Source: Alphaproteobacteria bacterium (GTDB taxonomy: Bacteria; Pseudomonadota; Alphaproteobacteria; Micavibrionales; Micavibrionaceae). From it: DNA of 64,000 bases. The translations under genes and the position numbers were made by a program. Positions 33,027 to 43,266 of the stretch are shown here, one piece after another. Under the pieces are notes generated by a model. The model ran no database searches, was not told the origin of the DNA, and saw nothing but the letters and a program-made list of their open reading frames with translations. The stretch spans positions 124,001 to 188,000 of the forward strand of contig NZDE01000013.1 of NCBI GenBank assembly GCA_002690045.1, given 5' to 3'. Numbering within the stretch: position 1 is the first letter of the stretch; every line of letters begins with the position of its first letter.

Positions 33027-33866
33027 ATGGATAAGAAAATTAATGTCGCTTTGATACAAACATCGGCGCGCCCTGAAATTGCTGATAATTTGGCGTTAAT
33101 TGATGATGCGTTTATGACGGCGGCGGATGGCGGGGCGGAATTTATCCTGACGCCAGAAAATAGCTGCCACATGGTGCACCCATCCGCAAAGAAGTTGCGT
33201 AGCGCACCGGCGGAAAGCGGGCACCCATTTTTGGAGCATTTTACGAAGCGCGTTCAAGAACGGGGCGTATGGTTATTGCTCGGATCCCTTACCATTAAAG
33301 GGGACAATAATAAATTACTGAACAGATCGTATTTATTATCACCTAAAGGGACAATCGTTGCGCGTTACGATAAAATCCATTTATTTGATGTTGATACGCC
33401 AGACGGCGTGGCATATCGCGAAAGTCAGATTTTCGATGCGGGGGAGCGCGCGGCGCTTGTCCATAGTGATATTGGCCGCATTGGTATGAGTATTTGTTAT
33501 GATGTGCGTTTCCCGCATTTATACCGTGATTTAGCCCAGCGCGGGGCAGAGATTTTGACTGTGCCCGCGGCATTTACCGTACCGACAGGACAGGCGCATT
33601 GGGAGACTTTGCTACGCGCCCGTGCGATTGAAAATGGCGCGTTTGTTCTTGCGCCCGCACAGACAGGTACGCATGAAGGCGAACGTGAAACATGGGGGCA
33701 TTCGATGATTATTAACCCATGGGGGAAAGTTATTGCTGCAGCGGGCGAAGATGAAGGGATTGTGACGGCGGAGATTGATTTGGCCGATGTTGCCTTACGA
33801 CGTAGTCAAATTCCATCGCTTAAAAATGGACGCCCTTACAAGGTGGATGAATTGCGCGGCTTATAA
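33027..33866 (+). CDS. Carbon-nitrogen hydrolase (Nit-type amidase)
   Basis: A 279-residue nitrilase-superfamily enzyme with the Glu-Lys-Cys triad: Glu in ILTPENSCHM, Lys in YDKIHLFDVD, Cys in MSICYDVRFPHLY. The sequence resembles Nit1/deaminated glutathione amidases, which clear deaminated glutathione and other omega-amides. AAGGGAA 9 nt before ATG 33027 supports the start. The last 6 bp overlap the convergent gluQ. Confidence 0.88.
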   Translation: MDKKINVALIQTSARPEIADNLALIDDAFMTAADGGAEFILTPENSCHMVHPSAKKLRSAPAESGHPFLEHFTKRVQERGVWLLLGSLTIKGDNNKLLNRSYLLSPKGTIVARYDKIHLFDVDTPDGVAYRESQIFDAGERAALVHSDIGRIGMSICYDVRFPHLYRDLAQRGAEILTVPAAFTVPTGQAHWETLLRARAIENGAFVLAPAQTGTHEGERETWGHSMIINPWGKVIAAAGEDEGIVTAEIDLADVALRRSQIPSLKNGRPYKVDELRGL

Positions 33867-34700
33867 ACCTTCCGCGCTAAGGCGCTTTAGGTAATCACCT
33901 TTTTCAATCATATTTTTAACATCGTCAACGCTAAACCCTTTGGCGCGAATGTCACGTAGGGTCACGCTTTTATTGCGTTTGGCGAAGCGTTTGCCTTCAT
34001 GGTCGTAGAGTAATTTATGATGATGATACTCAGGCTCATCAAGGCCGAGCAAAGCTTGAATTACGCGGTGGATATGGCAGGCATAGAGGAGATCATCACC
34101 GCGGGTGACAAGGTTAATGCCCTGTGCATGGTCATCAATACAAACAGATAAGTGGTAACTGGTTGGCGTTTCTTTACGTGCTAATACCACATCGCCGAGC
34201 AAGTGCGGGTCAACATCAACTTTGCCGGCTTTATGGTCGTAAAATGTTAAGGGGGTGGATATGTGTTTTAGCGCGGCATCAATATTAAGGCGCAGGGCGT
34301 AGTTATGGTCGTCTGCCATATCAGTGATTTTTTTATGGCGGCAATGACCCGTGTAGAGCTTACCTTCTGGGCCGTGTGGGGCATCGGCGCTTTCGTTAAT
34401 ATCTTTGCGTGTACAGTCGCAGGGGTAAAGTACGCCCATATCGGTGAGCTGATCTAGCGCCGCTTGGTAAGCGGGCATGTTTTCAGATTGTTTGAGGACT
34501 GGCTTAACCCATTTAAGGCCAAGCCATGTGAGGTCTTCATATATCGCGTCATAGAATTCAGGGCGCGCGCGGGTTTGGTCAATGTCTTCTATACGCAGGA
34601 TAAATTCATCCCCCTGTGCGGCAGTAAACAGCGCGGAATAAGCATGACCTATATGCAGGTAGCCAGTTGGAGAGGGGGCAAAGCGTGTTTTTGTCGTCAT
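33861..34700 (-). CDS. gluQ: Glutamyl-Q tRNA(Asp) synthetase
   Basis: A 279-residue truncated class I glutamyl-tRNA synthetase homologue. FAPSPTGYLHIGHAYSAL holds the HIGH-type motif, a cysteine set (YPCDCTRKDI, TGHCRHKK) the likely zinc site, and RFAKRNKSVTLRD the KMSKS-equivalent. The anticodon-binding C-terminal domain of full GluRS is missing, which is the hallmark of GluQ. It adds glutamate to queuosine in the anticodon of tRNA-Asp. It lies 28 bp behind fliP on the same strand. Confidence 0.92.
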   Translation of the reverse strand: MTTKTRFAPSPTGYLHIGHAYSALFTAAQGDEFILRIEDIDQTRARPEFYDAIYEDLTWLGLKWVKPVLKQSENMPAYQAALDQLTDMGVLYPCDCTRKDINESADAPHGPEGKLYTGHCRHKKITDMADDHNYALRLNIDAALKHISTPLTFYDHKAGKVDVDPHLLGDVVLARKETPTSYHLSVCIDDHAQGINLVTRGDDLLYACHIHRVIQALLGLDEPEYHHHKLLYDHEGKRFAKRNKSVTLRDIRAKGFSVDDVKNMIEKGDYLKRLSAEGL

Positions 34701-34728: not shown

Positions 34729-35511
34729 CTAGAAGCCAGGCGGCGGGCCGCTTTCAAATGACCGGACGAGTGAGCCTGAAATTAAGTTCCAGCCATCAAC
34801 AAGGACGAAGAAAATAATCTTGAAAGGCAGGGAGATCATCACCGGCGGCAACATCATCATACCCATCGACATCAAGATGGATGCTGTGACCATATCAATA
34901 ATCAAAAACGGTAAGAACAGCATAAAGCCAATTTCAAAGGCACGGCGCAGCTCCTAAATCATGAAGGCGGGCACGACAACGCGCAAAGGTAAGTCTTGTG
35001 GGCTTTCGACGTTTTGGACATTGCCAATTTCAGCAAATAGCAAAATGTCTTTTTCACGGACATGTTTCAACATGAAGGCGTGGAATGGCTCAACCGCGTT
35101 ATCAAAGGCGGTCATTTCATCTATCTCTTCATTGATAAGGGGCTGAATGCCTTGTTGGTAAGCGGCTTCCATCGTTGGCGCCATGATAAATAGCGTTAGG
35201 AACAAAGCAAGCGAGATTAGCACGGTGTTTGGCGGTGTTTGCTGAATACCCATAGCGGTACGCAGGAATGACAATACAACGATAATCCGTGTGAATGAGG
35301 TCATCATAATAAGGATAGATGGCGCAAGCGACAGGATGGTTATTAAGGCAACCATTTGAATAATGCGCCCTGTGACGGATCCGTTCGTGTTTTCTTCGCC
35401 GAAATCTAATGTAAAGGATTGCGCCCATACATCATGCGGCAGCAAGATGATGCCGCTTATTAGAGTGAGGAGGGCGATTATAAAAAAGCCGTGCTTATAT
35501 GTGCGGATCAT
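34729..35511 (-). pseudogene. fliP: Flagellar export protein FliP interrupted by an in-frame amber codon
   Basis: FliP is a core pore-forming component of the flagellar export gate. The frame from ATG 35511 to TAG 34729 would encode about 260 residues, normal for FliP: a signal-peptide-like start (ending HDVWA), LSLAPSILIMMTSFTRIIVVLSFLR, and the C-terminal [20 protein letters not shown] and [16 protein letters not shown]. At 34954-34956 the codon after FMI is TAG, where the family has serine (FMISEL), so TCG-to-TAG is a one-base change. The frame on both sides is otherwise intact. Translation would stop at 185 residues, without the last two membrane helices. It may be a real nonsense mutation, a sequence error, or read through. 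Confidence 0.85.
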
Positions 35512-35819
35512 GCGGCGCGCTCCTTACCTTGTTCGATATTTCTTAGATCTTCAGCATCCAAAGATATATTTTGTTCAATGACAAGGTCATTATGCTGCCC
35601 AAGCAGAATAAGATGCTGTTGATTATCGCGTTCGATCAATACAACACGGCGGCGCGCGTCGAGGGGCATGTTTTCAATGACTTTTAAGCGGCGTTTTGCC
35701 GGTGTAATCATCGCAGGTCCTGCAATGCCCAGTTTCTTTAACAGCAATGCAAGCCCCCCCATAAGCGCGAGGACAAAAAGCAATGCTGCTAAAAAATATG
35801 TTATTTCCTGTAAGTTCAT
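35508..35819 (-). CDS. fliO: Flagellar biosynthesis protein FliO
   Basis: A 103-residue protein with one N-terminal membrane helix (YFLAALLFVLALMGGLALLLK) followed by a cytoplasmic part with RRLKVIENMPLDARRRVVLIERDNQQHLILLG, the conserved FliO pattern. FliO helps assemble FliP complexes. Its end overlaps the fliP start by 4 bp, so the two are translationally coupled. A strong terminator separates it from the upstream gene. Confidence 0.9.
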   Translation of the reverse strand: MNLQEITYFLAALLFVLALMGGLALLLKKLGIAGPAMITPAKRRLKVIENMPLDARRRVVLIERDNQQHLILLGQHNDLVIEQNISLDAEDLRNIEQGKERAA

Positions 35820-35899: not shown

Positions 35900-36544
35900 T
35901 TATACGCCGGCGGGCTTTGGATATTTTTCGCTCACTTCGACGCTCCACATACTAACAGCTTTGCCGCTGTTGTTAGTCATGGCGCGTTTAATTAAGCTTC
36001 CTTCACGTAGAGGGTCGGTGACAAAATTATGGCCGACTTCGACTTGGTCGTAAACATCACAAGGGATATTCCAATTAAATGATTGTGCGTTCCATGGGTC
36101 TTTACCCATTAGAATTGGATTAAAGGTAAAGCGGCGCTCACGTAGCGTTAGTTCAACAGAACAAGAGGATTGATCTGCATTAGCTGGCTCTTGTTTGCCT
36201 GTAGAATGCATTTTCCAGCTAGACATTGAGCCAAGCTCTAACACAAAGCTGCCCCAACGGAATTCGTCTAGGACTTCTTGGCCTTTTTTGTAGTTATTGG
36301 TTTCATTACATGCTGTGGGCAAGGCGAACTGTGTTTCGTTGAAAATATCTTTGCCGTGCTTTGTTATATCCAGAGATACGCGCCCACCTTGTTTTACATT
36401 CATGTTTACGGCGCAGCTATCGCCCCAATCATTGTGAACCGTCTTATCTTGTTGGATCGTGTAAACATTGGACCCATATAAATATAATAAACCTAAGCCA
36501 GCTAACCCAAATGCGGCTTTAATTGATTTTGATTTTATCGTCAT
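35900..36544 (-). CDS. Hypothetical protein with N-terminal membrane helix
   Basis: A 214-residue protein that I do not recognise. A basic start and hydrophobic stretch (AAFGLAGLGLLYLYGSNVY) predict a membrane anchor or uncleaved signal, leaving a soluble exported part with four cysteines (SCAVNMN, TACNETN, SSCSVELT, IPCDVYD). Their even placement suggests two disulfides. It is monocistronic and closed by a strong terminator. No functional hint comes from the neighbours. Confidence 0.65.
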   Translation of the reverse strand: MTIKSKSIKAAFGLAGLGLLYLYGSNVYTIQQDKTVHNDWGDSCAVNMNVKQGGRVSLDITKHGKDIFNETQFALPTACNETNNYKKGQEVLDEFRWGSFVLELGSMSSWKMHSTGKQEPANADQSSCSVELTLRERRFTFNPILMGKDPWNAQSFNWNIPCDVYDQVEVGHNFVTDPLREGSLIKRAMTNNSGKAVSMWSVEVSEKYPKPAGV

Positions 36545-36958: not shown

Positions 36959-37288
36959 TTAAGCAGATGGCTTTGGCGAGGCGTCAGCTTTTGTTGTCGC
37001 TTGCGCCGCTTTTGCTTGCTCACATGCAGCGCGTTCGGCGGCCATGGCTTCGCCGCGGCTTAGGCGTTCGCTACTTGAACGACCTTCACTGAAATCACGA
37101 CCGAGGCGTACACTACAGCGTGTTGATGCTGCATCTGTTTTTGCTTGCTGTGTGATTTGTGTTGGCGTTTCAATTGGCGCTGTCACTGATGCATCCGCAG
37201 CGCTGTTGTAAGCATTCGAGATAAACATGCCAGTGATGATTAAAGGTGTAGCAACTATTGCTGCTTTTGTGCTTTTCCAAAGAGTCAT
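36959..37288 (-). CDS. Hypothetical secreted protein
   Basis: A 109-residue protein with an N-terminal hydrophobic stretch (AAIVATPLIITGMFIS) that predicts export, followed by an Ala/Thr-rich, Glu-, Lys- and Gln-containing low-complexity body with two cysteines (STRCSVRLG, AACEQAKAA). No family is recognised. It converges on the terminator next to the microprotein gene. Confidence 0.6.
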   Translation of the reverse strand: MTLWKSTKAAIVATPLIITGMFISNAYNSAADASVTAPIETPTQITQQAKTDAASTRCSVRLGRDFSEGRSSSERLSRGEAMAAERAACEQAKAAQATTKADASPKPSA

Positions 37289-41055: not shown

Positions 41056-41322
41056 ATGGAACAGGCCGAAATTATAGAATCCATCCGTGAAGCCATTTGG
41101 CTTATTATACAAATCAGTACACCGATTATGTTGGTGGGCTTGATTGTCGGTGTCTTGATTGCGCTTCTGCAAGCCTTGACGCAGGTTCAGGAAATCACAT
41201 TGGTATTTGTACCTAAGATTATTGCGATTTTCATGGCTATCTTCTTTCTACTGCCACACTATTCCTTGATTATGGTAGCCTATATGGAGCGTATTGCTGA
41301 CCGTATTATTGGCGGGGGGTAA
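41056..41322 (+). CDS. fliQ: Flagellar export gate protein FliQ
   Basis: An 88-residue protein with two membrane helices (IMLVGLIVGVLIALLQALTQ and IIAIFMAIFFLLPHYSLIM) separated by the VQEITLVFVPK loop that is conserved in FliQ. It is part of the FliP5-Q4-R1 export pore. It runs directly into fliR, the stop codon and next ATG being 1 nt apart. Confidence 0.95.
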   Translation: MEQAEIIESIREAIWLIIQISTPIMLVGLIVGVLIALLQALTQVQEITLVFVPKIIAIFMAIFFLLPHYSLIMVAYMERIADRIIGGG

Positions 41323-41323
41323 T

Positions 41324-42097
41324 ATGTCCGAATTGCAAAGCTTTATTACGCAGGGCGTTTTTGCATTCATGCTAACTTTTGTCCGTGTTGGTACGGCGAT
41401 GATGATCTTGCCCGGTTTGGGGGATACGCTCGTACCGCAACAAGTGCGTCTTTATATTGCACTTGGTTTTGCTTTTGTTTTATTCCCAGTGACGCAAGCC
41501 TATATGCCTAATCCATTGCCAGGCTCTGTTTTGTTGTTCTTATTGATTATCTTTGAATTTATCACGGGCATGTTCATCGGCACTGTGGCGCGGATTATGA
41601 TGTCGGCGCTTGATGTCGCGGGTATGATTATGTCGATGATGGTTGGCCTTGGTAACGCGCAGCTTTTTAATCCGCTCATGTCATCGCAAGGTTCGCTTCT
41701 TGGCGCGTTTCTGTCGATTGCCGGTGTGGCGTTGCTATTTGTGACGAATCTGCACCATTTAATGCTTTTGGGACTGCTGGAAAGTTATCATGCTTTTCCA
41801 GTCGGGCAATTGTTACAGGCGCAATCTATGGCTGAAATGATTGGGCAGGTTGTCGCATCGTCATTCCGCATTGGTATACAAATGTCTATTCCGTTAATCA
41901 TTATTGGTACGGTGATGTATATCGGCATGGGTGTTTTGGCACGTATTATGCCGCAAATTCAAGTGTTTATGCTTGCTTTGCCACTGCAGATCTTGATTGG
42001 TTTTATAACCTTGGCTGTGACGGCCGCAGCGATGCTATTATTCTGGCTTCAGGAGTTTGAAAACGGTTTGGTTTTCTTCCTTGAGCAAAGCTTTTAA
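41324..42097 (+). CDS. fliR: Flagellar export gate protein FliR
   Basis: A 257-residue multi-pass membrane protein with FliR features: FAFMLTFVRVGTAMMILPGLGDTLVP at the N-terminus, LAFEFITG-like LIIFEFITGMFIGTVARI, and the PQIQVFMLALPLQILIGF segment before the last helices. A GGGGGG run in the fliQ end supports the ATG at 41324 over an upstream TTG. It occupies the third position of the export pore operon. Confidence 0.95.
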   Translation: MSELQSFITQGVFAFMLTFVRVGTAMMILPGLGDTLVPQQVRLYIALGFAFVLFPVTQAYMPNPLPGSVLLFLLIIFEFITGMFIGTVARIMMSALDVAGMIMSMMVGLGNAQLFNPLMSSQGSLLGAFLSIAGVALLFVTNLHHLMLLGLLESYHAFPVGQLLQAQSMAEMIGQVVASSFRIGIQMSIPLIIIGTVMYIGMGVLARIMPQIQVFMLALPLQILIGFITLAVTAAAMLLFWLQEFENGLVFFLEQSF

Positions 42098-42112: not shown

Positions 42113-42205
42113 ATGGTTTTAGGCGCATCGTTTATTCTTTCTCAACTTGATTCTGTTATGCTGAAAGCAGAATGGAACGCATATCACGATAAGGCTTGGG
42201 GATGA
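42113..42205 (+). CDS. Possible 30-codon leader ORF coupled to flhB
   Basis: MVLGASFILSQLDSVML and so on, 30 residues ending HDKAWG. The TGA stop overlaps the ATG of flhB (ATGA), and GAGG lies about 11 nt before its own start. It might couple flhB translation to fliR. It is short and may be chance. Confidence 0.3.
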   Translation: MVLGASFILSQLDSVMLKAEWNAYHDKAWG

Positions 42206-43266
42206 GCGAAGAACAAGACAATTCCCAGAAAACCGAAGAACCCACCCAGAAAAAGCTGGAGGACGCCCAAAAGAAGGGGCAGGTCCCGCTTTCGCGTGAG
42301 TTTAACAATTGGATGATCTTGCTGGGCGGGACAATTATTGTCGCCTTTATGTCTGGGCACCTTATGTATGAGCTATCAGCGCTTTTTAAGGGGTATTTTG
42401 AAATGGCGGGGGCTATTCCTTCTGTGGGGGGGGGTTTGGCAAGTATTCTGGGGGATGCGCTGTTTGATGTTTTGCGTCTAATGGTCTTGCCGTTTTTGTT
42501 TTTAATGGCGGTGGCTTTTCTTGCGCCTGTATTACAAATAGGTTTTATGTTTTCCCCCGAAGCAATTAAGCCAGATATTAAAAAAGGTAGTCCGATGGCA
42601 GGGTTTAAGCGGCTGTTTTCCATGCAGGCGATTATCGAATTTCTAAAAGGCCTTCTCAAAATAATCGTGGTTGGCGCGGTCGGTGTATTGCTTGTTGCGC
42701 CCTATATGGATGGCTTGGATCATTTTGTGGGGCTGCCAATGTTGGACGCGGTGGATGAGCTTCGTTCCATCACTTTGCGTGTCTTGTCAGGTATGTTATT
42801 TGCCTTATTGATTGTGACGTTGATTGATGTGGTTTACCAACGTTATTCGCATCATCAGAAAATGATGATGACGATGCAAGAGGTCAAGGATGAGCATAAG
42901 CAAAGCGAGGGTGACCCGCATATGAAGGCGCGCTTACGCCAATTGCGACATCAACGTGCGCAGCAGCGCATGATGCAGGCGGTACCATCTGCTGATGTGG
43001 TTATTACCAACCCGACGCATTTTGCTGTGGCGCTTAAATATGACCCTGAAGTAATGGACGCCCCGAAAGTTGTCGCCAAAGGGGCTGATAACATCGCTTT
43101 GAAGATCAAGGAGGTCGCCGCAGAGCATGGAATTGAGGTTGTTGAAGATAAGCCGCTTGCGCGTTCACTTTATGATTTAGTTGAAATTGATCAAGATATT
43201 CCTGTTGACCTGTATAAAGCGGTGGCGGAGATTATCAGTTACGTTTTCAAAAAACGTAAGAAATAG
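42202..43266 (+). CDS. flhB: Flagellar export protein FlhB
   Basis: A 354-residue membrane protein with an N-terminal acidic and basic region (QDNSQKTEEPTQKKLEDAQ), four hydrophobic segments, and a cytoplasmic domain with the autocleavage site NPTH (VVITNPTHFAVALKYD). The C-terminal YDLVEIDQDIPVDLYKAVAEI follows. FlhB changes the export specificity from rod/hook to filament. It ends the fliQ-fliR-flhB block. The ATG at 42202 is chosen over a TTG two codons upstream. Confidence 0.96.
   Translation: MSEEQDNSQKTEEPTQKKLEDAQKKGQVPLSREFNNWMILLGGTIIVAFMSGHLMYELSALFKGYFEMAGAIPSVGGGLASILGDALFDVLRLMVLPFLFLMAVAFLAPVLQIGFMFSPEAIKPDIKKGSPMAGFKRLFSMQAIIEFLKGLLKIIVVGAVGVLLVAPYMDGLDHFVGLPMLDAVDELRSITLRVLSGMLFALLIVTLIDVVYQRYSHHQKMMMTMQEVKDEHKQSEGDPHMKARLRQLRHQRAQQRMMQAVPSADVVITNPTHFAVALKYDPEVMDAPKVVAKGADNIALKIKEVAAEHGIEVVEDKPLARSLYDLVEIDQDIPVDLYKAVAEIISYVFKKRKK

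Follow-up and report, generated by a model that had tools for sequence, protein, structure and literature searches.

Whether an in-frame amber codon in fliP marks a genuine loss of the flagellum, an error in the assembled sequence or a stop codon that is read through was the question raised by this locus. FliP forms the core of the flagellar export gate. In the window (by which we mean the whole stretch of DNA analyzed, 64,000 nucleotides), fliP lies on the minus strand at positions 34729–35511 and, when read through the amber codon, comprises 260 codons followed by a TAG stop. The ORF starts with the ATG at 35511 and its translation before the amber codon reads MIRTYKHGF...VVVPAFMI. The internal TAG is codon 186 (34954–34956, minus strand), at which relatives have Ser and rarely Thr; its context on the minus strand is 5′ TTC ATG ATT TAG GAG CTG CGC 3′. 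The natural stop of the gene is also a TAG (34729–34731, minus strand), and four codons beyond it lies a TAA. Upon re-reading the sequence, the coordinates, frame and codon given in the original prediction all held, as did its description of the two terminal stop codons. Neither a homopolymer nor a repeat is present at the amber site (TTCATGATTTAGGAGCTGCGC), where the longest run is of three.

The part of fliP located 5′ of the amber codon (residues 1–185; 34957–35511, minus strand) includes a signal-like segment and the first hydrophobic segments (hydropathy segments 5–30, 45–84 and 92–117), followed by a long stretch before the C-terminal segments. Residues 56–185 match positions 1–130 of TIGR01103 (E 4.6e-48). 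The 3′ part (residues 187–260; 34732–34953, minus strand) contains the C-terminal hydrophobic segments, with overlapping hydrophobic windows that span residues 190 to 244, and the first 66 of its 74 residues match TIGR01103 positions 132–197 (E 8.3e-34). As the profile is matched from 1 to 130 and again from 132 to 197, the position of the stop alone is missing, and the claim that both sides are conserved and in the same frame is thus supported. The PF00813 match (1–191) runs across the stop with 272.2 bits (cut-off 26.9) and one TAG inside; with TAG read as Ser, fliP gives a full-length match to that profile of 273.7 bits. The two halves taken singly reach 163.6 and 117.1 bits, both below the TIGR01103 cut-off of 217.45. 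FliP has solved structures; eight of their sequences match, including two from the related SpaP. The reading frame expected of FliP is interrupted by one internal TAG, and the observation is confirmed as real: one in-frame stop in an otherwise full-length match.

The start of fliP overlaps by 4 bases with fliO (35508–35819, minus strand), which is open and matches TIGR03500 (E 1.6e-13) with 50.5 bits, slightly below the cut-off of 55.25. The next gene downstream of fliP, identified by a profile match, is gluQRS (33861–34700, minus strand), encoding tRNA glutamyl-Q synthetase. On the plus strand, fliQ (41056–41322; PF01313), fliR (41294–42097; PF01311), flhB (42196–43266; PF01312) and flhA (2–1933, its 5′ end being just beyond the window) match their families without any stop. 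The other export-gate genes had been predicted to be intact; this is so for these four, and fliO is open with a score under its cut-off. FliF, FliG, a FliH-like protein, FliN, MotA, FlbD, FlhF, an FlhG-like ATPase, two rod-type proteins, FliE, FlgK, FlgE and FlgD are likewise open in the parts read, and so are the flagellins, FliD and FliS in the regions examined; FliO, FliH, MotA, FlbD and FlhF are among the matches below the curated cut-offs of the best NCBIfam models. Among the flagellar genes examined, fliP is the sole broken one. Between fliO and glpX, two minus-strand ORFs (35900–36544 and 36959–37288) match no NCBIfam or Pfam family; in the sister species, the same interval contains ORFs of different lengths.

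A second intact fliP, suggested originally as a test, was not found: a six-frame PF00813 search of the 2.88-Mb genome returned a single match. We then surveyed fliP in 58 genomes, counting the present one. A match was obtained in 55 of them, near full length in 53; the remaining two matches are fragments at contig edges that end short of the site. The internal stop is found in the present genome alone: the 52 relatives in which the site is covered, which provide the comparison that the original prediction had called for, are all free of it. As all 52 lack the stop, the interruption is not a chance arrangement of ORFs. We read codon 186 in 31 distinct relatives (30 loci returned plus one congener; the listing has 32 rows, the other congener appearing twice). 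Ser is encoded in 29 (TCG in 12, TCA in 8, TCT in 7 and TCC in 2) and Thr in two, so that Ser, proposed as the likely original residue, is well supported. The best 80 further named loci listed, from genomes partly the same as those 31, have Ser in 79 cases and Thr in one; two apparent stops among them are, by eye, natural ends. The proposed change from TCG to TAG requires one base, and TCG is the commonest codon (12 of 31), which makes it the likely direct ancestral codon, but the two congeners (FliP 88 and 83% identical in protein) both have TCT. The best named fliP match among those listed, from a Micavibrio sp. assembly, has 74% identity, which would place the organism near Micavibrio; the listing may omit entries of the present genome itself.

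Comparison of the sequence after the stop with that of the nearer congener gave a dN of 0.024 and a dS of 0.99. Among 69 positions downstream of the stop at which the congeners agree, one is specific to the present genome, and this is the last codon; upstream, seven of 138 such positions differ, and all but one of these seven precede residue 43. Judged from these substitution patterns, the 3′ part of fliP is a segment under constraint until very recently, and the nonsense change would therefore be very recent. The marks of a recent pseudogene, namely intact orthologues, a single disruption and a sole copy, are all found in fliP.

We next consider whether the amber codon stands alone in the genome. 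The DNA sampled was the whole of contig C13 plus 400 kb from both C12 and C11 (1,229,745 bases in all, 43% of the genome), and stops flanked by same-frame coding sequence were searched for by codon-usage scans, a Viterbi model and tblastn of sister genes. Beside fliP, this 43% of the genome contains four isolated nonsense codons in genes that are intact in the nearest sister species. At C13:220521, TAG replaces Glu (GAG in the sister) in a minus-strand gene (C13:219349–221010; L159 11346–13010) encoding a conserved protein of 560 residues, 85% identical in the sister and lacking a Pfam match at E 0.001. At C12:102806 (L181 2806, plus strand), TAG stands for Tyr (sister TAT) in a LolA-like gene, shortly past the signal-peptide-like region of its product. 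The remaining two are TAA codons: C12:295373, for Gln (sister CAA), in a minus-strand gene for a 3-hydroxyacyl-CoA dehydrogenase/enoyl-CoA hydratase (C12:293925–296327; L190), and C11:288217, for Tyr in the sister, in a plus-strand metallophosphoesterase gene (C11:287389–288558; L210). In the other congener (G002), the dehydrogenase/hydratase gene matches in two pieces and may be broken too, the codon at the site being CAA. Including fliP, the five cases comprise three TAG, two TAA and no TGA. The expectation from single-base neighbors is 0.0126 for TAG, 0.0192 for TAA and 0.0066 for TGA, and the probability of at least three TAG among five is 0.20; the distribution fits single-base mutation. 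As similar nonsense codons occur elsewhere in the genome, fliP is not special, and the interest of the case is lowered.

Several other ideas and candidates were discarded. Recoding specific to TAG, suggested by fliP and C13:220521, is weakened by the two TAA cases and by the ordinary proportions of stop types. A mutator acting through oxidative damage (G:C to T:A) fits these same two sites but not the change from CAA to TAA at C12:295373, and mutY runs uninterrupted through a contig overlap of 99 bases; a TAA flagged in the third match of the mutY search is, by eye, the natural stop of an nth-like gene. A further TAG at C13:106486 (118 codons open before it and 54 after), which the Viterbi model scored as interrupting a gene, was not counted, its match being found in one of 19 genomes, the present one.

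The number of nonsense codons depends on the settings of the scans. Codon scans gave 16, 13, 9 and 13 stops, of which fliP, C13:220521, C12:295373 and C11:288217 were pursued; the remainder, four of them translated, were taken as gene junctions or shadow frames. With a strict penalty, the Viterbi model made 4 nonsense and 16 frame-change calls; with a loose one, it made 7 nonsense calls, among them C13:353252, which by eye is a gene junction. As fliP and C12:102806 were missed at the strict penalty and recovered at the loose one, the count is a lower bound. Two of the 16 frame changes were kept as frameshifts suggested by the model only (C12:245914 and C11:298834, minus strand); one of them affects a transporter-like gene and falls in a run of seven G, where sequence errors are common. 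The gene-by-gene comparison started from 475 sister genes, 244 of which have an orthologue in the sample, and no frame break was found in these 244 genes in either direction. Six of its 22 stop rows were counted (fliP, C13:220521 twice, C12:102806, C12:295373 and C11:288217), while the other 16, and all 10 in the sister, were judged by eye to be overrun ends or shadow frames. In 643 kb of the sister genome, the Viterbi model called no nonsense codon at the strict penalty (four here) and one at the loose penalty (seven here), a TGA in L245; scaled by length, 2.1 and 3.7 calls were expected (P 0.12 each). The sister contigs C32, C33, C37, C49 and C88, as well as L032 and L173, were chosen for known cases or a paralogue, and the sister sample therefore leans to intact copies; C12:102806 came from its unselected part. 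The comparison is at most a weak hint that the present assembly is the worse of the two in nonsense codons.

Two of the three explanations offered by the original prediction, a recent nonsense mutation and a base-call error, survive these results, and readthrough is left unsupported. An ordinary nonsense event, in which a very recent substitution created the amber codon in the sole fliP, seems to us, by a little, the probable reading of the sequence data. That the consensus base is wrong and the real fliP intact is a serious possibility, if somewhat short of probable. An error would account for a 3′ part that is still constrained and for other examined flagellar genes that are open, and it explains just as well why all five nonsense codons lie in otherwise open genes. 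Five such codons in 1.23 Mb correspond to about 130 random substitutions, that is 1.1e-4 per base, which is plausible for a draft assembly, and the contamination estimate is 3.55%. The lack of frame breaks in the compared genes is expected of substitution errors and not of gene decay; real gene loss should leave frameshifts, of which only the two model suggestions, one at the seven-G run, are available. In a Micavibrio-like predator, moreover, selection on motility genes should be strong, and the sister sample has fewer nonsense calls. Against an error stand the length of the contigs (the longest of those examined being 662 kb) and the apparent mode of assembly. The start of C14 and the end of C17 (L216 and L217) have exactly 99 bases in common, inside mutY; the two contigs are probably adjacent in the genome, and the overlap, seen in this one contig pair, suggests a de Bruijn short-read assembly with k=99. 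With such an assembly several reads are expected to support the base, which would make errors from a single read unlikely.

Readthrough, either programmed or driven by a suppressor tRNA, could restore FliP and perhaps hold its level low. FliP is required in few copies, and even weak readthrough might suffice; the conserved 3′ part would also be explained, although recency alone accounts for it. We consider this very improbable. The suppressor tRNA with anticodon CUA that the original prediction had proposed to look for is not among the 38 tRNA genes found (Rfam model, typed by ARAGORN) in a genome estimated to be 98.85% complete. The RF1 gene prfA is open, with a match over the cut-off, and TAG is a normal stop, terminating fliP itself and, in the DNA sampled, 95 of 614 long ORFs; of the features of stop reassignment or suppression tested (a CUA tRNA, loss or change of RF1, avoidance of TAG), none was found. 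Programmed readthrough is expected to keep the stop in relatives, and it is kept in none of the 52 that cover the site, the two congeners included; in the other interrupted genes, the stop is TAG or TAA and replaces residues unrelated to Ser (Glu, Gln and Tyr). No likelier is it that the TAG is a real, maintained allele, with basal readthrough (requiring no dedicated tRNA) feeding one polar flagellum, or with a predator lineage switching to a non-motile, prey-independent or surface-bound life. Single mutations in stator genes (fliL or motA) cause such a switch of lifestyle in Bdellovibrio (PMC11323537). A search of the open-access literature found no paper combining readthrough with flagella. 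The most remote of these readings is a split FliP, in which translation stops at the TAG and re-initiates and the two fragments assemble. The TAGGAG created by the change does resemble a ribosome binding site, and the break falls just ahead of the C-terminal hydrophobic segments; however, the GTG at a good spacing after TAGGAG is out of frame, no in-frame ATG occurs before codon 197, which lies within the hydrophobic stretch at a distance of 27 bases from AGGAG, and a split fliP occurs in none of the 52 relatives.

According to the favored reading, that of an ordinary nonsense event, a single and very recent base change would have converted a conserved Ser codon into an amber codon in the only fliP, and this genome would have undergone several such point nonsense events, unrelated to each other. 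Provided that the base is real, translation would stop after residue 185 with loss of the C-terminal membrane segments. The FliP–FliQ–FliR export gate could then not form, and no flagellum would be made; the rest of the flagellar set would still be open, too little time having passed since the loss for these genes to decay.

Disrupted or mutated fliP is already known in several bacteria, and the present case is ordinary in this respect. In Burkholderia mallei, fliP contains a 65-kb insertion, accompanied by a frameshift in motB (PMC2743711), and PMC7677240 and PMC10654082 describe the accumulation of flagellar-gene mutations, fliP included, in laboratory cultures of C. jejuni and V. cholerae. 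These alleles share with ours a disrupted fliP in an otherwise near-complete flagellar set; ours differs in being a point amber, in a Micavibrio-like lineage, known from sequence alone. H. pylori has a phase-variable fliP, the off state or frameshift of which leaves cells aflagellate (PMC11394524). Its switch operates by slippage in a run of eight C, whereas here we have a substitution; as no repeat is present at the amber codon, no fast reversal is expected. Premature stops arising from one-nucleotide substitutions are reported for fliF and flhA of B. melitensis (PMC7410920). Point nonsense in flagellar genes is common to both cases, but several genes are broken in Brucella and here, among those examined, only fliP.

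Taken alone, the fliP case matters little, being either a base error or an allele with loss of function. Were the allele shown to be real and common in a wild Micavibrio-like population, this would suggest that a lineage thought to consist of swimming hunters is able to lose its motility. Isolated nonsense codons in the present assembly should not be taken singly as recoding.

Two observations were made on the tRNA genes. A tRNA-Leu with anticodon AAG is encoded at C13:115002–115086 (L063), and the 38 tRNA genes detected include no tRNA-Leu with GAG; bacterial tRNA-Leu does not usually have an A at the wobble position. An adjoining pair of tRNA-Thr(UGU) and tRNA-Gln(UUG) occurs twice, at C8:21712–21895 and C12:329865–330030, and may have arisen by duplication or belong to the 3.55% of the assembly estimated as contamination.
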